Shown here: one piece after another, positions 41,400 to 55,263 of the stretch
How the letters are laid out: every line of letters starts with the position of its first letter
How positions within the stretch are numbered: the first letter of the stretch is position 1
NCBI RefSeq assembly: GCF_005145045.1
Contig: NZ_CP039692.1
Coordinates: forward strand, 248,001 to 312,000
Direction of reading: 5' to 3'
DNA length: 64,000 nucleotides
Origin: Agrobacterium larrymoorei
Lineage (GTDB): Bacteria; Pseudomonadota; Alphaproteobacteria; Rhizobiales; Rhizobiaceae
The notes under the pieces: model-generated
The model's database searches: none
Told to the model about the DNA's origin: nothing
The model's input: the letters and a program-made list of their open reading frames with translations, nothing else
Made by a program: the position numbers and the translations under genes

Positions 41400-43028
41400 C
41401 TACTCTGGCTGGCCACTGAAAGCATCGATCAGAAGCTGGCGAAGTTCGTTCATCGGTCGTTCCCGCGTGGCGTTCGTCGGCGTCATGCCCGTTGTGAAAC
41501 CATCTTGCTGGAAACGTTCGAGTAACTGCGCATCATCGGTGACGATATGTACGGGCACCGCTCTGGAGGCTCCCGACCCCGTTATGATGGAGGCGGGCTG
41601 GTGGTCGCCCAGAATGATATAGAACACGCCCGGCCCCTGCCGCGCCATGAACTCTCCCAGCGTTGCCAGAGTGTAATCGATGGTCTGTATGTACTGGCTG
41701 CGCACGCGGTCTGGATTGGCCCAAACGACGGACGGAGGATCGCCGCTTGTGGCCTGGTCGTTGAATGCGGAACCATCGCCGATATCGTTCCAGTCAATGA
41801 GCTTCGGCACCGGCGTCCACGGCGCGTGGCTGGAGATGAGCGCGATTTCCGCCATCACGTTCTGACCGCGCGCATGAGCTGGCTTGATCGCCAGCCTGTC
41901 GAACGCCGACAGCGTATATTGATCCGGCATGGTGACCCAATTGAATGGTTTGCCGCGATATCCCAGTCCGGATGCGGAAAGTATCTGATCGTAACCGAAA
42001 TAATCGGACTCCGGCCACGCCATGGTAATGGCGGGCATGACGGCCACGCTTTGCCAGCCCGCCTGAGAAAACAGCCGGTTCAAGCTGGGCTGATGGCTGA
42101 TCATCAGACGGTCATAACGTGCCTGACTATCAACCCACAGCCCGGACAGAAGCGTGCCATGCGCCAGCCAGCTTATGCCGCCGACAGTCGGAGACGTTAC
42201 CCAACCGGTTGCCGCATGCAGCCCTGCCGCCTCGATCTGTCTTTGAACCGCCGAAAGGCGCGGCAGGGTGACATTGGAATAGCGGGGGTCCTCGACCGCA
42301 GATCGTCCGTAGGACTCGAAGAAGATGAGAACAATGTCCTTACCCTTTACCGCCCGGAAGAGACCCTTTCCATCCTGAGGACCGATACCGGTGCCTAGCG
42401 CCTTTTCGAAAACCTGCATATCCTCGACCGAACGGACGATGAGGCTGAGCCTCGCGGCAAGATAGGTCGGCGTTGCCAACTCCACGCGCGTTCTATCCAG
42501 CAGCAAAAGTCCTCCGGCAATAACGACGATGAAGGCAAAGACACCGATAAGCAGCCGCCGCAAATGTCCTCGCGCCTCGGCCATCCAGCGAAGAGATTTG
42601 AGGAAGATCAATGCGACAAGCAAGAGGATAAGGATGCCACATGTCAGCGCCACAAGGGCCGCGGGAGTACCGATGGTGCCGGAGATCAGGTTCCAGCCAT
42701 CGGTCAGCATTTTCACATCGAGGTACGGATTGAACTGACGCTGGAATGCACTTTGCACGCCGATATCCGCGATCTTCAGGAAAAGCATCAGAAAGACCAC
42801 GAAGCCGCTAAGGAAAATAACGAGGCGCCTCAGCCACCCGCGCGCCACCAGCACGAGGATTGCGATCAACGGCCACTCCAATGGAAGGCGCATAAATGCG
42901 TCCAACCCAATCGCGTCAGGATGGTCCGGCAGAGTGAAAGCAAGCAAGGCGGTGACGGAGAAAAGCACTGCACCGACCGCAGCTTTCAAGTTAATGTGTT
43001 TGGGACCTGTCCAGCTTTTTCCAATCAA
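41400..43028 (-). CDS. Membrane hydrolase/transferase of the alkaline phosphatase superfamily (LtaS/MdoB-like)
   Basis: This protein of 542 residues has about four or five N-terminal helices (to about residue 175) and a large periplasmic sulfatase-like domain. Motifs include IVLIFFESYGRSA, GWVTSPTVGGISWLAHGTLLSG with a possible threonine nucleophile, SSHAPWTPVP, and GDHQPAS near 500 with metal ligands. This layout matches enzymes that move phosphoglycerol or phosphoethanolamine onto glycans or lipids, or that cleave such groups. Which applies is not settled. The apparent start is TTG with GGGAG nine bases upstream. It diverges from the flippase-like gene at 43100. Confidence 0.8.
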   Translation of the reverse strand: MIGKSWTGPKHINLKAAVGAVLFSVTALLAFTLPDHPDAIGLDAFMRLPLEWPLIAILVLVARGWLRRLVIFLSGFVVFLMLFLKIADIGVQSAFQRQFNPYLDVKMLTDGWNLISGTIGTPAALVALTCGILILLLVALIFLKSLRWMAEARGHLRRLLIGVFAFIVVIAGGLLLLDRTRVELATPTYLAARLSLIVRSVEDMQVFEKALGTGIGPQDGKGLFRAVKGKDIVLIFFESYGRSAVEDPRYSNVTLPRLSAVQRQIEAAGLHAATGWVTSPTVGGISWLAHGTLLSGLWVDSQARYDRLMISHQPSLNRLFSQAGWQSVAVMPAITMAWPESDYFGYDQILSASGLGYRGKPFNWVTMPDQYTLSAFDRLAIKPAHARGQNVMAEIALISSHAPWTPVPKLIDWNDIGDGSAFNDQATSGDPPSVVWANPDRVRSQYIQTIDYTLATLGEFMARQGPGVFYIILGDHQPASIITGSGASRAVPVHIVTDDAQLLERFQQDGFTTGMTPTNATRERPMNELRQLLIDAFSGQPE

Positions 43029-43099
43029 TCCAATCTGCTCCCATTCCCCGCACGTAAAGCGCTGTTGGAATAACAGGCAAAATACAGAGGCCGCCGCGC

Positions 43100-44020
43100 T
43101 TGAACAAACTGCGAATTTTCGGGTCCCTCATCGTTCTGGCGGCTCTTGGAATTATCATCCTCCTGCGGACAGACTTGAATGGGCTTCAGCAATCTTTGTC
43201 TCGCATCTCGTGGACCGCGATCATCGGTTGCCTTGCGCTGGTTCAGGTTCAGATCGTGCTGTCTGCGTTGCGGTGGCGATTTACCTCCCGGCGCCTCGAC
43301 CAAGATATCGCGCCGCTCAAGGCCATCCGCGAATATTATGTCGCCAGCGTGCTGAACCAGACCCTGCCGGGCGGAATAGGTGGCGATGCGTTGAGAGCGT
43401 GGAGAATGCGCAGCGATGGCCCCGGAGGATGGAAACAACCCGCCAAGGCCGTGATTTTCGAAAGGCTCTCCGGCCAGATTGCCTTCTTTCTTCTGGCAAT
43501 GATAGGCCTTTCGATCTGGCCCTTCGTTACGGACGCCAATCTCGGTCAGCATGCGAGGCATTATCTTGTGCTCGGTATCGCGCTGGTCGCAGCTCTTGCC
43601 GTGGTCCTCTTCTGGATCAGAAAATGGAAGGCCGCCGAGAGCGCACTGGGCGAAAGCCTGCTTAACGTTTTCGTCCGGCGGAAGGCATGGCTGTTTCATG
43701 CACTGACAAGTGCTGCCATCCTCTTCACCTATGTCGCGACGTTCTTCATTGCCGCGCAGGCAACCGGATCGAACCTTCCCTTCGTCGCGGGCATCACGAT
43801 TATTCCGTTCTGTCTGGTTGCGATGTTGATACCCACCGGCTTTGGCGGCTGGGGCACGCGCGAGGCGGCGGCGATGGCGCTGTGGCCCATGCTCGGCGCA
43901 TCCTCTGTGGAGGGACTTGCTGCAAGCATTACCTATGGCTGGCTCTCGTTGGCCGGTGCCGCACCCGGTCTTTTTCTCCTTGCGGCTACGGCCTTCAGGC
44001 AGCGTCCAAGCCGCGCATGA
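43100..44020 (+). CDS. Flippase-like membrane protein (lysylphosphatidylglycerol synthase TM family)
   Basis: This protein of 306 residues has about eight helices and belongs to the UPF0104/AglD-type family, related to the flippase half of MprF. Landmarks are LSALRWRFTSRRL, YYVASVLNQTLPGGIGGDALRAWR, VIFERLSGQIAFFLLA and IPTGFGGWGTREAAA, all conserved in the family. It probably moves or helps move a lipid-linked molecule. The start is TTG with AGAGG eight bases upstream. It lies between a membrane hydrolase and the FkbM/CDP-alcohol/RibA genes, so it may handle their product. Confidence 0.85.
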   Translation: MNKLRIFGSLIVLAALGIIILLRTDLNGLQQSLSRISWTAIIGCLALVQVQIVLSALRWRFTSRRLDQDIAPLKAIREYYVASVLNQTLPGGIGGDALRAWRMRSDGPGGWKQPAKAVIFERLSGQIAFFLLAMIGLSIWPFVTDANLGQHARHYLVLGIALVAALAVVLFWIRKWKAAESALGESLLNVFVRRKAWLFHALTSAAILFTYVATFFIAAQATGSNLPFVAGITIIPFCLVAMLIPTGFGGWGTREAAAMALWPMLGASSVEGLAASITYGWLSLAGAAPGLFLLAATAFRQRPSRA

Positions 44021-44028
44021 GACAGACA

Positions 44029-44784
44029 TCAGGCAGGCTCTACACGCGCATAGACGTCTCCGGATGGGGCCTCCGCTGACATGCTCTGCAGCTCTGCCAG
44101 CATCTCGCTACCCGTTCTCCATTGATCGGAGGTGAAGCGGTGGGTCTCGCCTTCGACGCGGTTGAACCGGTAGTCCGCGAGCGACAGGAGCTTTTCCATC
44201 GCATCGGAAGCGACCGATGGCATTGCCGGGATGTATTCGAACGCGACGAGATTGATCGGCCTCGTCAAACCCGCTAGCACCTCCGCTTCCGCACCCTCCA
44301 CATCGATCTTGCAGAAGACGGGCATGCCGTATTTCTGGATCAGATCATCCAGCGTGACCATAGGAACGCTGACCGTCCTGTCCCAATCCACGTGGGCAAA
44401 ACCGGCATTCTGTTTCACCGCGTCCACGAAACTGGAAGAAACACTGGTAACGGTCGGATGGCGGCTGGAGATCAGGAGATCGACCGTTCCCTGAGAACGC
44501 CCGACAGCGACGCGCTCGAAGCCTTCGAGTTCAGCTCCCAGCCGCTTTTCTACGAAATCCGCAAAAATCGGCTGCGGTTCGATTGCCACGACCTTTGCAC
44601 CGATATCCAGCAGCGTGCGGCTGCGGCTGCCCACATGCGCGCCGATATCGAAGGCAAGTTCGCCGGGCGAAATGAGGGAGCGATAAAAACGCTTCAGCGC
44701 ATAACGCCGCCAGGGTTGACCATAATAGACGACCAGCGAGCGTGCGAGGCCAAGCGATGACGATAGATTATTGGCGACTGTCAT
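44029..44784 (-). CDS. FkbM-family methyltransferase
   Basis: This protein of 251 residues is a SAM-dependent methyltransferase. Motif I is FDIGAHVGSRS at about 45-55, followed by VVAIEPQP; FCKIDVEGAEAEVLAGL is the FkbM hallmark. Relatives methylate hydroxyls of sugars and polyketides. ATG 44784 overlaps the stop of the CDP-alcohol transferase by four bases (ATGA). The frame continues 50 codons upstream within that gene and was not used. It is the third gene of the unit ribA-like / CDP-alcohol transferase / fkbM. Confidence 0.88.
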   Translation of the reverse strand: MTVANNLSSSLGLARSLVVYYGQPWRRYALKRFYRSLISPGELAFDIGAHVGSRSRTLLDIGAKVVAIEPQPIFADFVEKRLGAELEGFERVAVGRSQGTVDLLISSRHPTVTSVSSSFVDAVKQNAGFAHVDWDRTVSVPMVTLDDLIQKYGMPVFCKIDVEGAEAEVLAGLTRPINLVAFEYIPAMPSVASDAMEKLLSLADYRFNRVEGETHRFTSDQWRTGSEMLAELQSMSAEAPSGDVYARVEPA

Positions 44785-45545
44785 CCCGCCACCCGCTTGC
44801 GCAGGAGGTAGGCAATATCGATGGCAAAAGATGTTGCCAGCAGCATCAGGGAGATCGCCGCGAGAGTGCTGGATAGCGGCACGCTCACCGCAGGAACGAG
44901 GATCAGGCAGAGGGTGGCAACCTGCACGACGCAAACGAATTTGCGCCTCAGCGACGATGGCAATTCCCCGTTAAGCACCGGAAGGAACCAGCCTGCTGCA
45001 ACAAAGAGATATCGCATCAGGCCGATCAGAAGCACCCAAGCTCCTGCCTTGTCCAGCATGGCGGCTGCAACGGAAAGGATGAGAATGAGGAAGGCATCCA
45101 CCTCCATATCGAAGCGGGCACCCAGTTCCGACTCCTGCCGATACCGGCGGGCGAGGTATCCGTCGATACCATCCAGCGCCAACGCAAAGAGGACGACGCC
45201 GACCAGTATCCAAAGAACCGTATCGGCATGTTGCAAACTTTCGAAACAGAGCACAGTCGCTCCGGTAAGGCTGACGAGCGAGGCCCGAAATGCCGTGACT
45301 ATGTTGGCATAGCCGAAACATCGGTGGGGATAGCTCGGCAGAAGATAAACGACGAAGCCGAAAATGATGGAGAGGGAAAGCACGGCGGCAGCCACAAAAT
45401 CCCATCCCATGGACATTTCCATCCGCACGACCAAGGCGACAACGATTGTGCCGATCATGAGGCAGGCAAGATGCGCCAGCGTGTTTTGGATGAGGGGCTT
45501 TCGGTCCCTCAGATTATGAGGCGCATCGCCATGTATAAGTGCCAT
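44781..45545 (-). CDS. CDP-alcohol phosphatidyltransferase family membrane protein
   Basis: This inner-membrane protein of 254 residues has about six helices and the complete CDP-alcohol transferase motif. Asp 128, Gly 129, Ala 132, Arg 133, Gly 142, Asp 146 and Asp 150 fit DGxxAR(x8)GxxxDxxxD. It should join a CDP-activated alcohol (CDP-diacylglycerol or CDP-polyol) to a second alcohol. N-terminal 80 residues form two additional helices not common in PgsA. It lies 23 bases after the GTP cyclohydrolase II gene and overlaps fkbM. That neighbourhood suggests a special lipid or polyol conjugate in place of housekeeping phosphatidylglycerol. Confidence 0.88.
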   Translation of the reverse strand: MALIHGDAPHNLRDRKPLIQNTLAHLACLMIGTIVVALVVRMEMSMGWDFVAAAVLSLSIIFGFVVYLLPSYPHRCFGYANIVTAFRASLVSLTGATVLCFESLQHADTVLWILVGVVLFALALDGIDGYLARRYRQESELGARFDMEVDAFLILILSVAAAMLDKAGAWVLLIGLMRYLFVAAGWFLPVLNGELPSSLRRKFVCVVQVATLCLILVPAVSVPLSSTLAAISLMLLATSFAIDIAYLLRKRVAG

Positions 45546-45568
45546 TCAATCCTCCCTGCGGCCCAATA

Positions 45569-46675
45569 TTACTCGGCAGCAACCAGCGCCTTCAAGTCCA
45601 TCATGTGACCGGCGCGGAGGGTTTTCGTGCGAAGATAATTCTGGTTTTCAGCCGTTACCGTCCCTGTCACCGGCGCACGCGCATCTACCTCTATGCCCCC
45701 AGCCCTCAGTGCGCTGATCTTGGTCGGATTGTTGGTGTAGACGGCGACTTTCGAGATGTTCATGTGCCGCAACATCGAGACGGCGGATTCGTAGCGGCGG
45801 TGATCTTCGGCAAGCCCCAGCTCCGCATCGGCATCGATCGTATCGAGGCCGAGATGCTGATAGCCGTAAGCCCGCATCTTTGCGCCAATGCCGGTGCCAC
45901 GACCCTCCTGATCGAGATAAAGCAGAACCCCGCCGCCTGCCTGTTTTAACAGAGCCAGACCGTTCCTCAACTGATCGCCGCAATCGCATTTCAGCGAACC
46001 GCAAAGATCGCCGGTGATGCAGGAGGAATGGATGCGGACCGGAACGGTGCGCGAGACATCCGGTTTGCCGACGACGATTGCCACCTGATCCTTCTGCGCA
46101 AGGCCACCCCGGAAAACGACGAATTCGGAGTCTCCCAGATCCTTCAGCGGAACGCGCGTGCGAACCACCTGTTCGAAACGCTGGCGGGCAACATCCGCCC
46201 CCTTCAGATTTTCAGCGGCCAGTTCGCAGCATCCGGCAAACCTTTCATTCGAAGCCGAGACATCCGCCATAACCATCGCCGGAAGCAGAAGCGCGATCCG
46301 CGCGAGTTCCGCAGTCTGAGATGAAAGATCATCGGCCTTCATCCAGCTGGATGGGCGCTCGGCACCCAAAACATAAGACAGGCGCGAGGCCTGCTCGAAG
46401 CTCACACCTGCGAGAGGCGTCAGTATATCACCGCTACCGACGATACCGAGCCGGGTTGCCCGAGGGGCCGTCAAAAGCAGCGAATGCTTGTTATCTACCG
46501 CCATTGCGAACTGATCGTAGATCGACGGTGCGACTGCATCGAGGGCGAGAACGGCCAACTTTCGTTCGTTGGAGGACAACAGGACGGGGCGACCAAAACG
46601 AAGCTCCGCGACGGCACGCTCTACTTCGATCGCCGGTGTGGTGAACTGGAAAGTTGGCTGGGTACCATGCGACAT
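45569..46675 (-). CDS. GTP cyclohydrolase II with degenerate DHBP synthase-like N-terminal half
   Basis: This protein of 368 residues carries a full GTP cyclohydrolase II domain in its C-terminal half. Zinc cysteines are Cys 219, 230 and 232 (SSCITGDLCGSLKCDCG), then YLDQEGRG at 253-260, DTIDADAELG and YTNNPTK. It should convert GTP to 2,5-diamino-6-ribosylamino-pyrimidinone 5'-phosphate, formate and pyrophosphate. The N-terminal 165 residues align loosely with DHBP synthase (VERAVAELRFGRPVLLSS) but lack the acidic DDEDRENEGD signature, so that activity is unlikely. This is probably a paralogue outside the main riboflavin set: it heads a unit with a CDP-alcohol transferase and faces a PTPS-like operon. 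ATG 46675 has AGGGAGAG upstream. Confidence 0.88.
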   Translation of the reverse strand: MSHGTQPTFQFTTPAIEVERAVAELRFGRPVLLSSNERKLAVLALDAVAPSIYDQFAMAVDNKHSLLLTAPRATRLGIVGSGDILTPLAGVSFEQASRLSYVLGAERPSSWMKADDLSSQTAELARIALLLPAMVMADVSASNERFAGCCELAAENLKGADVARQRFEQVVRTRVPLKDLGDSEFVVFRGGLAQKDQVAIVVGKPDVSRTVPVRIHSSCITGDLCGSLKCDCGDQLRNGLALLKQAGGGVLLYLDQEGRGTGIGAKMRAYGYQHLGLDTIDADAELGLAEDHRRYESAVSMLRHMNISKVAVYTNNPTKISALRAGGIEVDARAPVTGTVTAENQNYLRTKTLRAGHMMDLKALVAAE

Positions 46676-46868
46676 CTGACATACTCTCCCTGGACGTTTT
46701 TGTTTTTTACGAAGAAGATCGCGGGCGGATTTCCTTGCGGGCGTGAATTTATTTTGCTGACATCCACGGAACAAAACGCTTGGCTTGGCAATACGCTCCA
46801 TTGAACACGCATTTATTGGGATCACCCTTTTGGCATCTGCTAACGGCACCGCAGCAATCTCATCACCA
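46676..46868. promoter_or_regulatory. Divergent promoter region of the pterin-like cluster
   Basis: These 193 bases drive two diverging units: the GTP cyclohydrolase unit leftward and the dehydrogenase/PTPS-like/glycosyltransferase unit rightward. An AT-rich tract lies at 46700-46715 (TTTTTGTTTTTTACG). I could not fix promoter elements, and no riboswitch-like folding was evident. A shared control region would allow both arms to be co-regulated. Confidence 0.4.
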
Positions 46869-47831
46869 ATGAAGTCTCAAGCACTCTGGATCGAGAGCAA
46901 AGGCCAATGCGGCATACGAGAAACGGTCCTGAAGACGATAGCTCCCAATGAAGTTCTGGTTCGCAGCCTCTACAGCGGCATCAGCCGAGGAACGGAGTCG
47001 CTGATCTTCAACGGAGCAGTGCCGCACAGCGAATTCGAGCGGATGCGGGGACCGCACATGGAAGGCGATTTTCCGTTTCCCGTAAAGTACGGCTATTCCT
47101 GCGTGGGCGTGATCGAGGCCGGTCCTGAGGAGCTTGTCGGTCAAACCGTCTTCTGCCTGCATCCCCATCAGGATTTTTTCATAACGACGGCGGATATGGT
47201 CTCACCCTTGCCGGAAGGCCTTCCGCCCGAGCGCGCCGTGCTTGCGGCCAATATGGAAACTGCCCTCAACATCGTTTGGGATGCTTTCATTCAGCCGGGT
47301 GACCGCGTTGCGGTATTCGGGGCCGGGGTCGTGGGTACGCTTATCGCCAACATTTCCACAAGGATCGCCGGAACGGAAACCATTCTAGTGGACGTGAACC
47401 CTGACCGCCGCCGCCACGCGGAGGCCATGGGCATTTCCTTCGTCCAGCCAGGCGATCTGGAAGGCGAGTTCGATGTGCTGATCAATGCATCCGCATCCGG
47501 GGCCGCCCTAGCCAACGCGGTCGAACATGCTGGGATGGAAGCGCGGATAGTGGAAGCAAGCTGGTATGGCGACAAGACCGTTACAATTCCGCTTGGCGGC
47601 GCGTTTCACTCCAAGCGGCTTTCTCTCATCAGTTCACAGGTCGGCTCTGTTCCCTCATCGCGCAAAGCCCGCTGGACGTTTTCGCGACGAATGGCAAAAG
47701 CGCTCGAGCTTTTGCGTGACGAAAGGCTGGATCATCTGATTTCCGGCGAGACGGCATTCGCTGATCTGGCCGCCGATTACCCACGTATCCTGTCATCGCA
47801 GGACACGCTCTGCCACCGCATTCAATACTAG
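46869..47831 (+). CDS. Medium-chain dehydrogenase-like oxidoreductase lacking the catalytic zinc cysteine
   Basis: This protein of 320 residues belongs to the MDR (alcohol dehydrogenase-like) superfamily. The N-terminal GroES-like half has SLYSGISRGTE, where zinc enzymes have a cysteine at the position of Ser 39. The nucleotide-binding half has VAVFGAGVVGTLIANI and ILVDVNPDRRRHA, suggesting NAD(H). It resembles the branch of uncharacterised dehydrogenases and BchC. Start choice is uncertain: ATG 46869 matches where family similarity begins but lacks a strong ribosome site; the frame is open back to a TTG at 46785. It is the first gene of the rightward arm, 70 bases before the PTPS-like gene. 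Confidence 0.82.
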   Translation: MKSQALWIESKGQCGIRETVLKTIAPNEVLVRSLYSGISRGTESLIFNGAVPHSEFERMRGPHMEGDFPFPVKYGYSCVGVIEAGPEELVGQTVFCLHPHQDFFITTADMVSPLPEGLPPERAVLAANMETALNIVWDAFIQPGDRVAVFGAGVVGTLIANISTRIAGTETILVDVNPDRRRHAEAMGISFVQPGDLEGEFDVLINASASGAALANAVEHAGMEARIVEASWYGDKTVTIPLGGAFHSKRLSLISSQVGSVPSSRKARWTFSRRMAKALELLRDERLDHLISGETAFADLAADYPRILSSQDTLCHRIQY

Positions 47832-47834
47832 ACC

Positions 47835-47886
47835 TAACGCATTATCCGAACGCAAAACCGCTTCACACTTTTGCTGAAAATGCTCA
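47835..47886 (+). repeat. Dispersed palindromic intergenic repeat, partial copy C
   Basis: The 52 bases TAACGCATTATCCGAACGCA through TTTTGCTGAAAATGCTCA match the right half of copy A and the reverse complement of the left half of copy B. It sits inside an apparent operon between the dehydrogenase and the PTPS-like gene. The left half of the element is missing. Confidence 0.75.
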
Positions 47887-47901
47887 AACGAAAGAGAAAC
47901 C

Positions 47902-48300
47902 ATGTTCGCAGTCGAAGTCAGAGACCACATCATGATCGCCCACAGCCTTCCGCGTCCGGTCTTCGGTCCGGCACAGGGCATGCACGGCGCAACCTTCGTT
48001 GTGGATGCAGCCTTTTTCACCAAGGATGTGGACGAGGATGGTCTGGCTGTCGATATCGGGGCTGCAACCACTGTTCTTTCGGAGGTGCTGAAGCCGTTGA
48101 ACTACCAGAATCTGGATGAACTCGATGTCTTCAAAGGCAGGGTCAGCACCACGGAAGTCATCGCCAAGCATATTTTCGATGAGCTTGCAGCAGCGGTCGC
48201 GGCAAAACGCCTTGGTCCCGGCAGCCATCGCATATCCCGCCTGAAAGTCACCCTTCATGAATCTCACGCTGCTCGCGGCTGGTATGAGGCAGACCTTTGA
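47902..48300 (+). CDS. 6-pyruvoyl-tetrahydropterin synthase homologue with altered active site
   Basis: This protein of 132 residues has the PTPS/QueD fold features in order: an early AHSL with His 14, MHGATF with His 28, GLAVDIGAATTVLSEVLKPL, NLDEL, STTEVIAKHIFDEL and a late glutamate (Glu 120). Compared with QueD/PTPS, the catalytic cysteine position reads Ala 24. The third zinc histidine of HGH is Ala 30, and the catalytic Asp-His pair of LDH reads Asn 67-Tyr 68. The standard lyase chemistry is therefore unlikely. It may bind a pteridine or pyrimidine and catalyse another step. The stop overlaps the TTG start of the glycosyltransferase (TTGA), so the two are coupled. Confidence 0.87.
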   Translation: MFAVEVRDHIMIAHSLPRPVFGPAQGMHGATFVVDAAFFTKDVDEDGLAVDIGAATTVLSEVLKPLNYQNLDELDVFKGRVSTTEVIAKHIFDELAAAVAAKRLGPGSHRISRLKVTLHESHAARGWYEADL

Positions 48301-49343
48301 CATCACACCTCACCTTCGCCTACCCCGGCAATCTTGAACTGCGGACCGGGGGATATGGCTATGACCGGGAAATCATCAAAGGCCTGAAAGAGCTTGGCTG
48401 GAATGTCGAGCTTCTTGCCCTTGGAGACGGCTTTCCCTCTCCAAATCAGGAAGCATTGAAGGAAGCGGAGCGACGCCTTTCCGCATTGGAGGACGGCGCG
48501 CTGGTGGTAATCGACGGCCTTGCCTTCGGCATTATGGATGACTGGGCGGAGCGCGAGGCCGACCGGCTCAACATCGTCGCCCTTGTTCACCATCCGCTGG
48601 CACTCGAAACCGGGTTGAGCAAAGAGCAGCAGGCACCGCTTCGGCAGAGCGAAAGAGCCGCACTCGCCGCCACACGCCATGTGATCGTGACCTCACCCAT
48701 GACGGCAGCGGAGCTTACGAAAAACTTCGCTGTACCAGCCGATAAAATTGCCGTAGCCGTTCCGGGAACGGCGAAGCCATCCTCCAAGCCCAAAGCGCAG
48801 AATGACGTACCCCAAATCCTGTCCGTCGGTTCGCTTACCCAGCGCAAAGGCTATGACGTACTGATCGCGGCACTGGCGAAGGTTGCCGATCTGGCGTGGC
48901 AAACAACGATCATAGGCAGTCCGCATCTGGACCCGACCGTGGCCGCCGCGCTTAAGGGGCAGATAGAGACGCTGGAGCTCTCGGATCGCATTATCCTCGC
49001 GGGCGAGTCCGACAATCTGGGGCCGGCCTACGCGAAAGCCGATATCTTCGCGCTCGCCAGCCGCTATGAAGGTTACGGCATGGTATTCGCTGAAGCCCTG
49101 TCTCACGGCTTGCCGATCATTGCCTGCAAGGCTGGCGCGGTGCCGGATGTCGTGCCCGCTGATGCTGGCTTTCTGCTTCCGGTGGACGACGTGAACGCAA
49201 TCGCGGCGGCGCTGCGGACGTTGTTGAGCGATCCTCGGGAACGTGCGCGTCGAGCGGAGGCAGCATCACGCGCTGGCGCGCTTTTGCCCGGCTGGGCAGA
49301 TACTTCGGAGATCATTTCGAAAAAACTGAAAGAATTGGCATGA
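48297..49343 (+). CDS. GT4-family glycosyltransferase
   Basis: This cytoplasmic protein of 348 residues is a GT-B fold retaining glycosyltransferase. The C-terminal domain has ILSVGSLTQRKGYDVLI and the ExxxxxxxE nucleotide-sugar motif in RYEGYGMVFAEALSHGLP (about 256-273). The N-terminal domain has RTGGYGYDREIIKGL, an acceptor-side glycine loop. The start is TTG overlapping the PTPS-like stop, and its own stop overlaps the next gene by ATGA, so three genes are translationally linked. The acceptor is unknown; the PTPS-like partner makes a pteridine or pyrimidine alcohol a reasonable guess. Confidence 0.88.
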   Translation: MTSHLTFAYPGNLELRTGGYGYDREIIKGLKELGWNVELLALGDGFPSPNQEALKEAERRLSALEDGALVVIDGLAFGIMDDWAEREADRLNIVALVHHPLALETGLSKEQQAPLRQSERAALAATRHVIVTSPMTAAELTKNFAVPADKIAVAVPGTAKPSSKPKAQNDVPQILSVGSLTQRKGYDVLIAALAKVADLAWQTTIIGSPHLDPTVAAALKGQIETLELSDRIILAGESDNLGPAYAKADIFALASRYEGYGMVFAEALSHGLPIIACKAGAVPDVVPADAGFLLPVDDVNAIAAALRTLLSDPRERARRAEAASRAGALLPGWADTSEIISKKLKELA

Positions 49344-50137
49344 GCGGTTTCGACAAGGACTGGCTTAAACTCCGCGAACCGGCAGACCGCGCAGCAAGAG
49401 CCCAGCCGATGCTCGAGCAGGTCCGTCGCTATCTCGACGCCCGCCCGCAGCCGCATGTCATCATGGATATCGGATGCGGTACAGGCTCGACCTACCGCAC
49501 CCTCTCGCCGTTGCTACCCAACACAAAGTGGAGGCTTCTCGATTACGAGACAGCGCTTCTGGAGGAAGCAAAGCGTCAGATCGGCGACCACGACGATGTA
49601 GAATTTCACTGCGCCGACCTCAACAGGCTGGATGAAACGCTGTTGGAAGATGTTGACCTCGTCACCGCTTCCGCTCTGTTCGATCTCTGTTCGGCAGACT
49701 TCTGCGACAGGTTTGTCGAGCGGTTGGCGCATAAGAGCATCGGGCTTTATGCGGCTCTCAATTATGATGGTGTGATGGAGTGGACGGTGAAGCATCCGCT
49801 GGATGCTCAGGTCTCTCACGATTTCAACCGGCACCAGCGTTCAGATAAGGGTTTTGGACCAGCACTTGGCCCGGATGCGACGCAGCACCTTTCGTTACTT
49901 TGCAAAGGACTGGGATTTTCGGTGGAAACGGCAGATAGCCCCTGGCGTCTGGGTCCATCGCAGGCGCAGCTACAGAGAGAGTTCCTAACAGGGCTTCAAC
50001 GACCAATTCAGGAGATCGGCAATATTGCTGCTGCCGATTTCAAGGACTGGCTCGACTTCCGTCACTCAAACACCGGCGTAGACGGCAGCGTCTGCATCGT
50101 CGGCCACACGGATTTTCTGGCGCTGCCCCTTCACTAA
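49340..50137 (+). CDS. Class I SAM-dependent methyltransferase
   Basis: This protein of 265 residues has motif I VIMDIGCGTGST at about 40-51, an acidic residue after LLDYE, and a DLVTASALFDL region typical of small-molecule methyltransferases. The C-terminal 130 residues, with VKHPLDAQVSHDFNRHQRSDKGFG, are likely to bind the acceptor. It is the last gene of the rightward arm and its 3' end overlaps by 72 bases with the convergent RibD-like gene. The role is inferred as methylation of the product of the cluster. Confidence 0.87.
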   Translation: MSGFDKDWLKLREPADRAARAQPMLEQVRRYLDARPQPHVIMDIGCGTGSTYRTLSPLLPNTKWRLLDYETALLEEAKRQIGDHDDVEFHCADLNRLDETLLEDVDLVTASALFDLCSADFCDRFVERLAHKSIGLYAALNYDGVMEWTVKHPLDAQVSHDFNRHQRSDKGFGPALGPDATQHLSLLCKGLGFSVETADSPWRLGPSQAQLQREFLTGLQRPIQEIGNIAAADFKDWLDFRHSNTGVDGSVCIVGHTDFLALPLH

Positions 50138-50893
50138 AGGCGCCTTCAGGCGGCAGTCGAAAAGCACATCGCTTCCCAGCCCGTAAACCTCTGCGGCGGG
50201 GCGATGCGCATTGCAAAGCTGCGCAATCGGCGGCAGGGATATGCCGCAAGGACCGGAGCCGATGATCAGGGGCGCGATGCAAACGTGGAGATGATCGACC
50301 AGACCGGCATCGATGAAGCGCGCGATGGTTTTCGCTCCACCTTCCACGAGGATCCGCTTCAATCCACGTTCGGCCAGACACTTCAAAATATCATCCGGAT
50401 CGAGACCTGAAGGCCCACGTTTGAGCCTTACAACATCGGCGCGGTGGTTAGACATCGGAGCATCATGCCCCTGAATGACGATGACCGGCGCTCCGCCATC
50501 ATGGAACAATCCCTCATCACCAGTCAGTTCGCCACGGCAGTCTATCACGACGCGGGTGGGGCTCGGGCCTTTCACCTCTCGAACGGAAAGACGCGGATTG
50601 TCGTTCTGCACCGTTCCGATACCTACGATCACCGCATCCACAAGAGCGCGGCAGCGATGCAAGTGCGCAAGGCCATCCGGCCCTGAAATATCGCGGGCAT
50701 CGCCGCTCGGCGTGGCAACCCGCCCATCCAGAGACTGGCCCACCTGCGCAAGCACGAAACCGTCGCACGCCGAAGCAATCGGGCCATAAAGCGAAAAGGC
50801 CGGATCGGCCTCTTTTCTGCGAAGCGCGTCCTTCCCGTCGCGAATAGAGAGAAGCCGCGTCCAGAGCCTGTCAGTCATATGGAGATTGCGCAT
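50066..50893 (-). CDS. Stand-alone RibD C-terminal-type (DHFR-like) reductase
   Basis: This protein of 275 residues corresponds to the reductase half of RibD, without the deaminase half. Motifs are QVGQSLDGRVATPSG, VDAVIVGIGTVQNDNPRLSVR with the NADPH loop, RVVIDCRGEL, and RILVEGGAKTIARFIDAGLVD followed by IAPLIIGSG. RibD reductases turn the ribosyl side chain of a pyrimidine 5'-phosphate into ribityl with NADPH. Here the likely substrate is the product of the nearby GTP cyclohydrolase II or a derivative. The first 45 residues are an extra extension. ATG 50893 has CAGGGAC at good spacing; ATG 50878 is an alternative. Its 3' end overlaps the methyltransferase gene on the other strand. Confidence 0.86.
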   Translation of the reverse strand: MRNLHMTDRLWTRLLSIRDGKDALRRKEADPAFSLYGPIASACDGFVLAQVGQSLDGRVATPSGDARDISGPDGLAHLHRCRALVDAVIVGIGTVQNDNPRLSVREVKGPSPTRVVIDCRGELTGDEGLFHDGGAPVIVIQGHDAPMSNHRADVVRLKRGPSGLDPDDILKCLAERGLKRILVEGGAKTIARFIDAGLVDHLHVCIAPLIIGSGPCGISLPPIAQLCNAHRPAAEVYGLGSDVLFDCRLKAPLVKGQRQKIRVADDADAAVYAGV

Positions 50894-50905
50894 CGACGTC
50901 CCTGT

Positions 50906-51439
50906 TCAAAGAATACGGTAAAGCGTGGCGTCTCGGCGGATCAGGTGGTGAAAGATCACTGCCAGCATGTGTAACGCGAAAAGACCCAAAATGATCCAAG
51001 CGCTCCACCCGTGGATGGCCGATAGCGTCGGCGCGATCTCCGGCGATTTGCCAAGTGGGCTCCAGATCGGGACCAGCCCGAACCATTGCAGCGGAAACCC
51101 GTGAGCATTGGTGGCCAGAAAGCCGGAAACCGGCATGACGATCAAAAAGAGGTAGAGCAAGCCATGAACGGTGTGGGCTGCGATACGTTCTATCGCTGGT
51201 CCTTGGATGGGAGGAGCGGGTTGAAAAAGCCTCGCCCCCACCCTCAAAAGCATGACCCAGAGGACAAGAAAACCGAAGCTCTCGTGCACGAGATAGAAAT
51301 CCAGTTTCACCTCGTCTTTGACGAAGCCGATCATCAGTCCGAGTGGCCATGTGATGAACACGAGAACCGAGACAATCCAGTGCAACACGCGGGCTGCGCG
51401 GCTATGTCTCGGCACGCTCTGCATCAGGTCGCGCGTCAT
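50906..51439 (-). CDS. Cytochrome b561 family protein
   Basis: This inner-membrane protein of 177 residues has four helices and the expected haem histidines (ARVLHWIVSV, YLVHESFGFLV, IAAHTVHGLLYLF, LHMLAVIFHHLI). It should pass electrons between quinol and a periplasmic or cytoplasmic acceptor. ATG 51439 has a very strong GGAGGAGGGAG upstream; the frame continues six codons further. It lies 12 bases before the RibD-like reductase, so the two probably form one transcript. Confidence 0.9.
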   Translation of the reverse strand: MTRDLMQSVPRHSRAARVLHWIVSVLVFITWPLGLMIGFVKDEVKLDFYLVHESFGFLVLWVMLLRVGARLFQPAPPIQGPAIERIAAHTVHGLLYLFLIVMPVSGFLATNAHGFPLQWFGLVPIWSPLGKSPEIAPTLSAIHGWSAWIILGLFALHMLAVIFHHLIRRDATLYRIL

Positions 51440-51545
51440 CTTCTCCCTCCTCCACAATGTACGCCATTAGACACTGCCTATACGCATGGAACCAGCAGCT
51501 GGTTCAGATGCTTAACCACCCGGTACAGGGCGTTGGTAAGGTCGC

Positions 51546-54015: not shown

Positions 54016-55263
54016 TCAGGCTTGCCCGGACCATTTGAATTCCAGCCTTTCGAGGCCACACTTCACCTCTGCCGCACCCATGAAAAGACGCCACAGGAGG
54101 CCGGATCGGTAATTCTCCATCATCGCGACGACCGGGCCTTGATTGGTTGCCAGATGCGTTTCCGCCACCCATCCCGTTCTCGGAGAGAACGCATCGACGA
54201 AACCGTAACGGCCCAGCAGCCTGCCATTCTCATAAGCCACGAAGTACTCCATCGCCGCTTGCGCCTGATGGGGCAAAACGGGGAAGCTGGATAGCGCAGC
54301 GGTTGGTGCGATGACCCCGCCATCGACGGTGGGCGAGAAAGCGCGGTAACCTTTCGGTCCGTCGCAAGCCGTCAGTCCCCATATCGGGCTATCGGGAAAT
54401 TTGGACTTGCAATAGTCGTGGTTGATGCGCGCATGAGCCTCGGCCTGCTTCTGATAGTCGCAGTAGAGATCCTTCAGGCCATAAGGTTTCAGGCCACAGA
54501 ACGAATATTGTGACAGGAAAAGCGGCCCGCCGAATGGTTCGCCAAGAGGCAGAACGGTGCCGAGATAGTCCTTGCCGTTGACCATATCCCCATGTCGCGC
54601 CCAGCCATTGTGGTAACTGGCCGGCGAAATGGAATGTGCCTCGGCCCCCGCAGCCAGCACATAGGACACCAGCGCCTCGTTCCAGCCCGTGATTGGAACA
54701 TTGCGCGCCCAGCGAAATTTGGGGCTCCAGTGCCAGAAAAGCGGGCCATCCGTTCCGCGCGTGAACCAGTTCCACTCCACGGTCCGAACCAGTTCATCCG
54801 CGACCTTTTGGATTGCCATTTCCTCTGGCCTGTCGTCAGCAAAATATTCTCTTACGCAGATCACGCCCTGCATCAGGAACGCGGTTTCCACCAGATCGGC
54901 CCCATCGTCCCGCTTCCCGAAGGGAATGACCTCCAGCGTAGCCGCGTGCAGGAAGTGCGGGAACGCGCCGTGAAACCGGGGAGCGGAAGAGAGCGATTGC
55001 AGCATTTTCGCAACCCGCGTTACCGCCTGCTCACGGCTGATCCAGCCTCGCTCCGCACCGACGACAATGGCCAGAAGACCGAAGCCGATGCCGGAAACGG
55101 ACGCAATCTCGTTGATGACATTGCCGTCGGATCGCATTCGGTCTCGGGGCAGGCCACTGACCGGGTTGGACCCGGCCCAGAAATATTCGAATGTTGCGCT
55201 GTGGATGTCGTCTAAAAGATCGACCTGAAAGCGGGAGGTCTGCTCGATGTGTTCTTTTTGCAA
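54016..55263 (-). CDS. Glucoamylase-like glycoside hydrolase (GH144-type, possible beta-1,2-glucanase)
   Basis: This protein of 415 residues has the alpha/alpha-barrel glucoamylase-like domain (PF10091). It is seen in DDIHSATFEYFWAGSNPVSG, RDRMRSDGNVINEIASVSGIGFGL, GPLFWHWSPKFRW, NEALVSYVLAAGA, WGLTACDGPKGY and GVIAPTAALSSFP. The characterised members are GH144 enzymes that cut linear beta-1,2-glucan. No signal peptide is present, so it would act in the cytoplasm. Rhizobiaceae make cyclic beta-1,2-glucan, which makes a beta-1,2-linked substrate plausible. It ends close to the MOSC gene (convergent). Confidence 0.82.
   Translation of the reverse strand: MQKEHIEQTSRFQVDLLDDIHSATFEYFWAGSNPVSGLPRDRMRSDGNVINEIASVSGIGFGLLAIVVGAERGWISREQAVTRVAKMLQSLSSAPRFHGAFPHFLHAATLEVIPFGKRDDGADLVETAFLMQGVICVREYFADDRPEEMAIQKVADELVRTVEWNWFTRGTDGPLFWHWSPKFRWARNVPITGWNEALVSYVLAAGAEAHSISPASYHNGWARHGDMVNGKDYLGTVLPLGEPFGGPLFLSQYSFCGLKPYGLKDLYCDYQKQAEAHARINHDYCKSKFPDSPIWGLTACDGPKGYRAFSPTVDGGVIAPTAALSSFPVLPHQAQAAMEYFVAYENGRLLGRYGFVDAFSPRTGWVAETHLATNQGPVVAMMENYRSGLLWRLFMGAAEVKCGLERLEFKWSGQA

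Follow-up and report, generated by a model that had tools for sequence, protein, structure and literature searches.

The window, a 64,000-nucleotide stretch of Agrobacterium larrymoorei DNA, on balance probably carries between positions 41,400 and 51,439 a copy of a conserved pathway that is horizontally mobile and turns a GTP-derived intermediate into a glycosylated, methylated and exported conjugate. This reading draws on the gene set and its conservation, on the motifs of a GTP cyclohydrolase II (GCH II) and a CDP-alcohol phosphatidyltransferase (CDP-OH), and on the residues lost from a PTPS-fold protein, all of which we observed directly. An initial annotation had proposed that a GCH II product is diverted, glycosylated, methylated and possibly joined to lipid. 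A conserved unit, a reductase-only RibD_C and a co-occurring CDP-OH and flippase-like protein agree with it, whereas we infer the chemistry itself (diversion, glycosylation, methylation and lipid link).

The ten gene families that had been named for this region were recovered, nearly all by Pfam and NCBIfam matches, the LtaS-like one being the least sure. The locus is composed of:

41400..43028, minus strand: LtaS/OpgB-like membrane protein, probably of the sulfatase superfamily (relatives in 32 of 105 loci)
43100..44020, plus strand: flippase-like protein of the MprF N-terminal type (PF03706, E 4e-36)
44029..44784, minus strand: FkbM-family methyltransferase (PF05050, E 9e-17; 37 of 105 loci)
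44781..45545, minus strand: CDP-alcohol phosphatidyltransferase, CDP-OH (PF01066, E 1e-17; 43 of 105 loci)
45569..46849, minus strand: RibA2, GTP cyclohydrolase II of the NF006456/PRK08815 type (inner ATG start at 46675)
46676..46868, no strand: intergenic stretch from which the RibA2 and MDR units diverge, the presumed promoter region
46869..47831, plus strand: MDR/BchC-like dehydrogenase with a GAGVVG Rossmann motif (TIGR01202, 74 bits, cut-off 291)
47902..48300, plus strand: PTPS-IV (FGPAQ) subfamily protein, SCO6650-like (PF01242)
48297..49343, plus strand: GT4 glycosyltransferase (PF00534, E 2e-30; 93 of 105 loci)
49340..50137, plus strand: class I SAM methyltransferase, MT (PF13649, E 1e-10; 99 of 105 loci)
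50066..50893, minus strand: stand-alone RibD_C reductase without a deaminase domain (PF01872, E 9e-40; 75 of 105 loci)
50906..51439, minus strand: cytochrome b561, upstream of RibD_C (PF01292, E 4e-27)

The gene overlaps noted earlier proved real: PTPS/GT4, GT4/MT and CDP-OH/FkbM share 4 bp each, the last through an inner ATG of FkbM at the CDP-OH stop. The FkbM frame reaches 44934 if an upstream TTG is used, and that of cytochrome b561 extends to 51457 from a TTG. The cluster is not one operon. It has several transcription units, laid out as two divergent units with the cytochrome b561-RibD unit convergent on one of them; MT and RibD_C converge with a 72 bp overlap, and the flippase and LtaS-like genes are oppositely oriented. 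As had been stated, no lumazine synthase, riboflavin synthase, GCH I or queuosine gene was found among the 22 ORFs scanned from 35.3 to 56.4 kb, which include some spurious antisense frames, nor did Pfam find RibB, RibH, RibE or a deaminase domain among them, so they do not form a riboflavin operon. A PF10091 gene lies at 54016-55263.

The PTPS-like protein matches SCO6650 of Streptomyces coelicolor over its full length (E 3e-35; profile E 1e-59), whose structure, PDB 3d7j, was deposited as 'Uncharacterized protein'. FGPAQ, HGAT and E120 are invariant in 26 of 26 aligned sequences, which places the window protein in the PTPS-IV (FGPAQ) subfamily. FGPAQ replaces the catalytic Cys motif, HGH has become HGA, and in all 26 a Y, F, M or L stands in place of the 'PLDHKNLD' His (PDB 3i2b, 1b66); Glu120 and the TE of TTE, which we take to be the pterin-binding residues, are retained. 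Judged by its sequence, PTPS-IV has lost the PTPS catalytic residues and kept the ring-binding Glu. The canonical PTPS/QueD triad includes Asp-His. We know of no function for SCO6650, which presumably lacks both zinc and the catalytic triad; SCO6655 is presumably a GCH II. The HGH zinc site of canonical PTPS/QueD and its CxxxHGH or CxxxxxHGH motif are described in the part of PMC5445326 that we consulted. We rejected a queuosine or BH4 role for PTPS-IV because HGAT stands for HGH and the DHKNLD His is absent in 26 of 26, and because TIGR03367 gives 33.7 bits against a cut-off of 89.25; a separate QueD is encoded in the window genome. The label '6-carboxytetrahydropterin synthase' that these proteins carry, with its tie to queuosine synthesis, points to an annotation error. 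A role in F420 synthesis, given as unpublished in the consulted part of PMC5041015, was also rejected for the cluster group: it is unlikely because CofD is missing from 26 of 27 cluster genomes, that of the window included, and present in one.

RibA2 scores 482 bits against the NF006456 cut-off of 464, matches PF00925 and has intact zinc cysteines (Cys-x10-Cys-x-Cys, motif at residue 277), which identifies it as a GCH II. Going by this cysteine pattern, matched by eye, it is the sole zinc-intact GCH II of the window genome, where the other GCH II domain is fused to RibB and lacks the cysteines. RibA2 could therefore also serve riboflavin in this strain, and its sequence is compatible with a housekeeping role. 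The initial annotation had held that riboflavin genes without their own ribA or ribD would make the cluster copies the housekeeping ones; the ribA part applies literally, but the ribD part does not, as a separate RibD with a deaminase part is encoded at another locus. Among same-family genomes without PTPS-IV, 10 of the 13 searched (14 were listed, G079 being left out) have only a degenerate GCH II domain. Two zinc-intact copies each were seen in five cluster genomes that belong to another class. RibA2 is an extra copy in some genomes and missing from others. Only 42 of 105 neighbourhoods contain it, and no zinc-intact GCH II was seen in four cluster genomes (G265, G392, G262 and G095), so that a GTP origin is only presumed there.

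The RibD-type reductase is indeed stand-alone, with a RibD_C domain and no deaminase domain; its best PDB matches are 6p8c, labelled 2,5-diamino-6-ribosylamino-pyrimidinone phosphate reductase, and 2azn. The MDR protein matches PF00107 and TIGR01202 (bchC), both below cut-off, and the two methyltransferases belong to the FkbM family and to class I. Cytochrome b561 recurs in 39 of 105 loci, within 500 bp of a core gene in 34, with RibD_C the nearest in 21 and MT in 15. Its pairing with YceI was dropped (cytochrome in 0 of the 8 loci with a YceI-like family). In some relatives a creatininase-family gene adjoins GCH II; for the one member tested we rejected ArfB (NF033501, 18.9 bits against a cut-off of 180), its scores for MftE (107 bits), creatininase (80) and ArfB (19) all being below cut-off.

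The cluster recurs well beyond close relatives. Of 398 genomes sampled from the window's phylum, its own genome included, 27 (~7%) carry PTPS-IV, and the MDR profile, which includes sequences from 8 of these 27, was positive in exactly the same genomes with five candidates scored per genome; the weakest of the 27 gave E 5e-121, and the sole other reported match 5e-42 (limit 1e-40). Neighbourhoods of the other 26 genomes contain MDR in 26, GT4 in 25, MT in 24, RibD_C in 22, CDP-OH in 12, RibA2 in 11 and the flippase in 11. We then compared 105 loci, namely 26 from an even draw, 78 of the best 80 of at least 584, and the window. Two loci, L137 and L193, were removed because their contigs are those of L035 and L039, the only duplicates sought. 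This selection of the best 80 biases the sample towards the window's relatives. MDR occurs in 101 of these loci, next to the counts listed above for MT, GT4 and RibD_C, all of which combine tblastn with a family grouping that may merge or split paralogues. The order MDR, PTPS, GT4, MT is kept in 58 of the 82 full loci, that is, those of 19 kb or longer, some loci being cut at contig ends. This four-gene unit, usually with the RibD reductase, is present in alpha-, beta- and gammaproteobacteria, in Actinomycetota and on named plasmids; 7 of the 20 plasmid records with a match were inspected, and two Streptomyces plasmids have PTPS-IV without partner genes. Conservation is far above chance; the Fisher tests on the 105 loci ignore relatedness. 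What recurs as one unit is a PTPS-fold family together with GCH II, a RibD that has the reductase part only, and a lipid/export module, a defined gene set for testing the role of PTPS-IV.

The 296 Actinomycetota genomes gave 9 strong PTPS-IV matches, centre genome included. Actinomycetota cluster loci of at least 19 kb (n = 10, leaving out two with PTPS-IV alone and one 3.8-kb contig) have CDP-OH in 9 and the flippase in 7. RibD_C was not detected in six Streptomyces-type loci (L203, L243-L247), and in loci of this type, as on a 59-kb Microbacterium plasmid, CDP-OH and flippase accompany the core. The earlier linkage of CDP-OH and flippase to the core is borne out by their co-occurrence, in Actinomycetota as elsewhere: the flippase is found in 30 of 82 full loci, each time with CDP-OH, although the short loci L142 and L147 have it without. 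CDP-OH has a complete DxxDGxxARx8Gx3Dx3D motif at residue 125 (24 sequences aligned), which makes it a member of its family, and scores 47.5 bits against the pgsA cut-off of 109; the flippase matches TIGR00374 and MprF below cut-off. Full loci with CDP-OH number 38, usually with the flippase, and those with an OpgH synthase 32: CDP-OH without OpgH in 32, OpgH without CDP-OH in 26, both in 6 and neither in 18. That CDP-OH is missing from 44 of the 82, and both modules from 18, speaks against our main reading, and so do the two Streptomyces plasmids with PTPS-IV but no partner genes and the six Streptomyces-type loci in which RibD_C was not detected. Over all 105 loci OpgH occurs in 41 (within 500 bp of the core in 35) and OpgG in 7. 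The core-adjacent OpgH forms a separate paralogue group, with 45-56% identity to the query versus 35-38% for copies beside MdoG.

The assignment of the LtaS-like protein to the LtaS/OpgB-like sulfatases is probable, and weaker because no Pfam or NCBIfam model recognises the protein as such, so that it relies on the PF00884 (Sulfatase) match of its homologue in L139 and on ESYG, SSHAPW and GDHQP, presumably the LtaS metal site; its family profile found no relative in the PDB. An inositol-phosphatase-type gene (one member checked by Pfam) is present in 17 of 105 loci, 12 times within 500 bp of the core, and accompanies CDP-OH in only 7 of the 17. It was not seen in the window's cluster.

From these families we propose the following route. 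RibA2, or elsewhere another GCH II, would open GTP to 2,5-diamino-6-(phosphoribosylamino)pyrimidinone, and the RibD_C reductase would yield the ribityl form, the 2-amino group being kept because no deaminase is present. MDR might then oxidise the side chain, perhaps at C2', so that ring closure by the 5-amino group could give a pterin independently of GCH I. As a T-fold protein without one zinc ligand and the catalytic pair but with the residues for a 2-amino-4-oxo ring, PTPS-IV may shape this step, after which GT4 would glycosylate and the methyltransferase(s) O-methylate the product. The conjugate would leave the cytoplasm in one group of loci, the window included, through attachment to a phospholipid by CDP-OH, the PF03706 flippase and often the LtaS-like enzyme, and in another group through the OpgH-type synthase; some loci have neither. 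Against this route, reduction by RibD followed by oxidation by MDR looks redundant if a pterin is the aim. If the chemistry is true, it would constitute a large undescribed branch of GTP/flavin metabolism with an end product at or beyond the membrane.

A bolder version, which we think unlikely, would have the pathway produce membrane lipids of a new class, with a flavin-precursor head group. Phosphoribityl-diaminopyrimidine, or a pterin derived from it, would count among the polyol phosphates, as do glycerol-3-phosphate and inositol phosphate, and CDP-OH could join it to CDP-diacylglycerol. Dephosphorylation by a phosphatase, which in some relatives would be the inositol-phosphatase-type protein, would follow, GT4 would add a sugar as PimA does on phosphatidylinositol, the flippase would turn the lipid outward, and the LtaS-like enzyme might hand the phospho-head group on to an acceptor in the periplasm. 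The result, in diderm and monoderm bacteria alike, would be a phospholipid whose head group is redox-active and fluorescent.

Other accounts of the cluster were weighed against our main reading. RibA2 might be the housekeeping GCH II among unrelated envelope genes gathered by chance. Being the only zinc-intact copy of its genome agrees with this account, but conservation across phyla, the exact co-occurrence of PTPS-IV and MDR, same-family genomes without any zinc-intact GCH II and the genomes with two intact copies largely refute it, and we hold it to be very improbable. A small diffusible metabolite, with CDP-OH, flippase and LtaS-like protein serving a neighbouring lipid function, is improbable. 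Toxoflavin is a precedent, as GCH II and RibD homologues are used there for a non-flavin product, and the frequent absence of CDP-OH would agree. So would the recurrence of ABC-ATPase genes (34 of 105 loci; 45 genes, 11 within 2 kb of the core; family typed by containing the window's PF00005 gene) and of LysR-type (8 loci), GntR-type (6) and ABC-permease (8) families, assigned by eye. These transport and regulator families, however, mostly lie at a distance from the core, with median gaps of 4 to 6 kb, and CDP-OH and flippase remain with it in the Streptomyces-type loci and on the Microbacterium plasmid.

Alternatively, the cluster could make a substituent or primer of periplasmic glucans, with the LtaS-like protein as an OpgB-type transferase attaching a heterocycle conjugate to the glucan. 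The frequency of OpgH and OpgG, an OpgH with MdoG that lies ~6 to 12 kb away from the cluster of G395, G383, G138 and G174, the LtaS motifs and the PF10091 gene are consistent with such a role; we nevertheless consider it quite improbable, since neither OpgH nor MdoG was found in the window genome or in G265, since G012, G047, G297 and G280 have cluster-type OpgH but no MdoG, and since the core with CDP-OH and flippase also occurs in Actinomycetota, which to our knowledge lack periplasmic glucans of the OpgGH type. Unlikely, too, is a PTPS-IV acting on GCH I pterins of the folate branch, with RibA2 and RibD_C only topping up flavin. The product would then be a signalling pterin that is glycosylated and methylated, much as the pterin glycosides of cyanobacteria or the unidentified PruR ligand of Agrobacterium. 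In its favour, PTPS-IV retains Glu120 and TE, and A. tumefaciens has pterin-dependent periplasmic signalling, for which a 2026 review (PMC13259868, in excerpt) gives 2'-O-methylmonapterin as the proposed pterin and no known way across the membrane. Against it, GCH II and RibD_C recur beside the core, no GCH I was recognised by eye among the 29 families found in at least 5 loci, and, weakly, A. fabrum C58 is absent from the best 80 of at least 584 named loci, which may leave out the window's near kin.

Several known systems resemble parts of the cluster. The riboflavin pathway shares its first two enzyme families (ribA, ribD) with it but has the deaminase and RibB/RibH/RibE that the scanned ORFs lack, its RibD being at another locus. 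The toxoflavin cluster is a ToxA-E set that includes a WD-repeat protein. Archaea enter riboflavin and F420 synthesis in the order ArfA/ArfB/ArfC; the stand-alone reductase is alike (6p8c label), as is the creatininase-family gene that some relatives have next to GCH II, yet the member tested falls below the ArfB cut-off and CofD is mostly absent. OpgH or the LtaS-like protein adjoins the core as in the OpgGH/OpgB system, but the cluster-type OpgH is a separate group, also present in the four genomes without MdoG. The pterin glycosides of cyanobacteria and Chlorobium (PGT) begin from GCH I. They are pteridines carrying a sugar, according to the consulted part of PMC5683033, and differ in starting from biopterin, whereas the window has GCH II, RibD_C and a PTPS without catalytic residues. 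The light-regulated pterin operon of Pseudomonas (FolE/FolX/FolM; PMC9758184, in part) is unrelated. In the open-access literature, most subscription papers being outside this scope, we came across no account of the cluster as a whole or of its product. SCO6650 (PDB 3d7j) is a full-length homologue of the window PTPS-IV, and the subfamily with GCH II and RibD_C neighbours has been in print since 2017: the AGeNNT paper (PMC5445326), in the part consulted, defines PTPS-IV as cluster-node 62 of IPR007115 (FGPAQ signature, 561 sequences) with PF00925 (called 'GTP cyclohydrolase I/FolE2') and PF01872 nearby, and proposes no product. The signature and both neighbours are common to our loci, while MDR, GT4, methyltransferase, CDP-alcohol transferase and flippase do not figure in that part of the AGeNNT account; the window has them all.

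The gene cluster is a genuine, widespread unit whose core encodes an MDR dehydrogenase, PTPS-IV (an FGPAQ-type PTPS homologue), a GT4 glycosyltransferase and a class I methyltransferase (MT). Pfam, NCBIfam and motif checks bore out the gene families that the initial annotation had listed in the window (C2:248001-312000 of the 5.26-Mb, four-contig genome G000), while the pathway it proposed from them, leading to a GTP-derived, glycosylated, methylated and perhaps lipid-linked pyrimidine or pteridine, stands only in part. The LtaS-like assignment is weaker: a homologue matches PF00884, but the protein itself matches no family in Pfam or NCBIfam. RibA2, the GCH II of the cluster, has its zinc cysteines intact and, at 482 bits, exceeds the NF006456 cut-off of 464. 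The full catalytic motif is present in the CDP-alcohol phosphatidyltransferase (CDP-OH), the RibD-type reductase (RibD_C) is of the stand-alone kind, with no deaminase domain, and the flippase-like protein belongs to PF03706. The named relatives of the PTPS come chiefly from Agrobacterium and Rhizobium, on which ground the genome was placed in the Rhizobiaceae. The MDR-PTPS-GT4-MT unit diverges from a minus-strand unit of RibA2, CDP-OH and FkbM, and cytochrome b561 and RibD_C converge on it; the flippase and LtaS-like genes are separate from both units and oppositely oriented. Three gene junctions overlap by 4 bp, and the 3' ends of MT and RibD_C overlap by 72 bp. One gene of this layout is:

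Window 50906-51457, cytochrome b561, also present in 38 further loci

It adjoins RibD_C or MT in most of its 39 loci. A PF10091 'Glycoamylase' gene also lies near the cluster (window 54016-55263); this domain also occurs in cyclic glucan synthases.

To follow conservation we used an even draw of 398 genomes from the phylum of the window, its own genome included. PTPS-IV matched 27 of them at E < 1e-12, and the MDR profile at E < 1e-40 matched exactly the same 27, the weakest at 5e-121; the sole further MDR match reported was a second copy in G265 (5e-42). Two of the MDR matches have one TGA each inside the matched range (G046:C1:2761460-2762437 and G354:C1:661319-662299). The neighbourhoods of the other 26 genomes held MDR (26), GT4 (25), MT (24), RibD_C (22), CDP-OH (12), RibA2 (11), flippase (11), FkbM (8) and LtaS-like (5) genes. 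With 78 loci from the best 80 of at least 584 relatives in a species-genome collection, these 26 and the window made 105 loci, in which MDR was found 101 times, MT 99 and GT4 93, followed by RibD_C (75), CDP-OH (43), RibA2 (42), OpgH (41), cytochrome b561 (39), FkbM (37), flippase (36), LtaS-like (32), inositol-phosphatase-type (17), creatininase (7) and OpgG (7) genes. The order MDR>PTPS>GT4>MT is kept in 58 of the 82 full loci (at least 19 kb). Judged by record title, the best 80 of the at least 584 relatives include alphaproteobacteria, betaproteobacteria (Polynucleobacter, an Alcaligenaceae MAG), gammaproteobacteria (Xanthomonas, Pseudohaliea) and one actinobacterium (Aquiluna). An apparently secreted protein family lies near the cluster in 12 loci (member L170:6053-7084, without a Pfam match), and a family of YfhO-like membrane proteins (PF09586; L171:14814-17132) lies at most 2 kb from the core in 8 of 8 loci.

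Within the phylum of Aquiluna (296 Actinomycetota genomes, centre included), PTPS-IV was found in 12 at E < 1e-12, nine below 1e-23 and three near the limit. Loci L243-L247, whose genomes measure 8 to 10 Mb, share their layout with an annotated Streptomyces fungicidicus plasmid: CDP-OH, MDR, PTPS, GT4, MT, flippase, creatininase and RibA, RibD_C being undetected in these six loci. L242 carries CDP-OH, MDR, PTPS, GT4, MT, RibA and RibD_C with an LtaS-like gene, L248 has MDR, PTPS and GT4 only, and L249 is a 3.8-kb contig. Plasmids, of which 7 of 20 matching records underlie what is said here, also bear the unit. A 59-kb Microbacterium plasmid holds CDP-OH, MDR, PTPS, GT4, MT, flippase and RibD, with transposition genes a few kb away; the unit is accompanied by mdoH on plasmid pOB3b1 of Methylosinus trichosporium OB3b, adjoins a transposase on a Thiodictyon plasmid and occurs on an Agrobacterium plasmid. 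Two Streptomyces plasmids (L204, L205) have PTPS-IV without any cluster partner, perhaps a second genomic context; in both it lies near MBL-fold, cupin, sigma-70 and BTAD regulator genes.

G000 contains two GCH II domains. One is RibA2; the other, fused to RibB as its RibA half (L061:5334-6551, G000:C1), lacks the zinc cysteines. This leaves RibA2 as the sole intact GCH II of the genome, one of the outcomes that the initial annotation had said would count against its proposal. RibD, with its deaminase part, and QueD each have a locus of their own in G000. Four cluster genomes (G265, G392, G262, G095) have degenerate GCH II copies only. Among 13 same-family genomes without PTPS-IV, ten have only a degenerate GCH II, a normal RibA is present in two, and the remaining one gave no match; the degenerate RibB-fused form recurs in loci L096-L113, and is the sole GCH II domain in those ten. 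Five cluster genomes belonging to a different class of the phylum (G314, G050, G086, G395, G308) hold two intact GCH IIs each. One of the two is of the RibA2 kind; in G086 it sits at the end of a contig, in the other four within the cluster. Two further genomes of that class, G341 and G016, hold two as well. Several lineages therefore have RibA2 as an additional copy tied to the pathway, and in G000 it possibly serves both uses.

As to export, CDP-OH and flippase occur together in 30 of the 82 full loci and flippase without CDP-OH in none, while LtaS-like genes are accompanied by CDP-OH in 26 of 27 cases (relatedness ignored in both counts); two shorter loci (L142, L147) do have a flippase without CDP-OH. 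CDP-OH alone is present in 32 full loci, OpgH alone in 26, both in 6 and neither in 18, again ignoring relatedness. The core-adjacent OpgH-type glucosyltransferase is a different copy from that of opgGH: the cluster type occurs in 10 of the 27 genomes (45-56% identity to the query, itself one of them), at the cluster in 8 and on other contigs in G280 and G392, and copies beside MdoG show 35-38% identity to the query. Both kinds coexist in 6 of 27 genomes, four genomes (G012, G047, G297, G280) have the cluster type without any MdoG/OpgG match, and OpgH and MdoG are both absent from G000. CDP-OH/flippase and OpgH may thus be two routes across the membrane for one kind of conjugate, a reading that leaves the 18 loci with neither module unaccounted for. 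A lipid-linked product is suggested by the motif of CDP-OH, by the way this gene pairs with the flippase, and by the presence of both in Actinomycetota. The product could possibly be a diffusible metabolite instead, as ABC-ATPase genes occur in 34 of the 105 loci, but these lie mostly distant from the core.

The FGPAQ and HGAT motifs of PTPS-IV are invariant in the 26 of 27 sequences aligned (L052 left out), and SCO6650 of Streptomyces coelicolor (PDB 3d7j) is the sole solved relative that aligned to the window PTPS over its whole length. 'PLDHKNLD' of PTPS chains 3i2b/1b66 is 'PLNYQNLD' in the window; the place of its His is taken by Y, F, M or L in 26/26 PTPS-IV, its Asp is present in 1/26 (L050), and Ala replaces the last residue of HGH in 26/26. 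Glu120 and T84-E85 are retained. Given the roles of these residues in PTPS, the PTPS reaction appears unlikely and recognition of a 2-amino-4-oxo ring plausible.

The papers searched contain no description of the whole cluster; a fragment of its neighbourhood is already in print. In the section concerned, the AGeNNT paper (PMC5445326) shows a PTPS node of 561 sequences with the FGPAQ motif and PF00925 and PF01872 as neighbourhood Pfams, labels PF00925 GTP cyclohydrolase I and proposes no product. The relevant part of a 2016 review (PMC5041015) has PTPS-IV serving F420, given as unpublished; we rejected this role in these genomes, with CofD in 1/27 cluster genomes.

In the best-supported reading of the cluster, the GCH II product would be diverted prior to deamination, RibD_C and MDR would carry out side-chain redox, PTPS-IV would bind the ring of the intermediate, and the product would then be glycosylated, methylated and exported. 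MDR oxidation at ribityl C2', if it occurs, would yield a keto-amine identical to that of the GCH I Amadori step, which could close to a dihydropterin.
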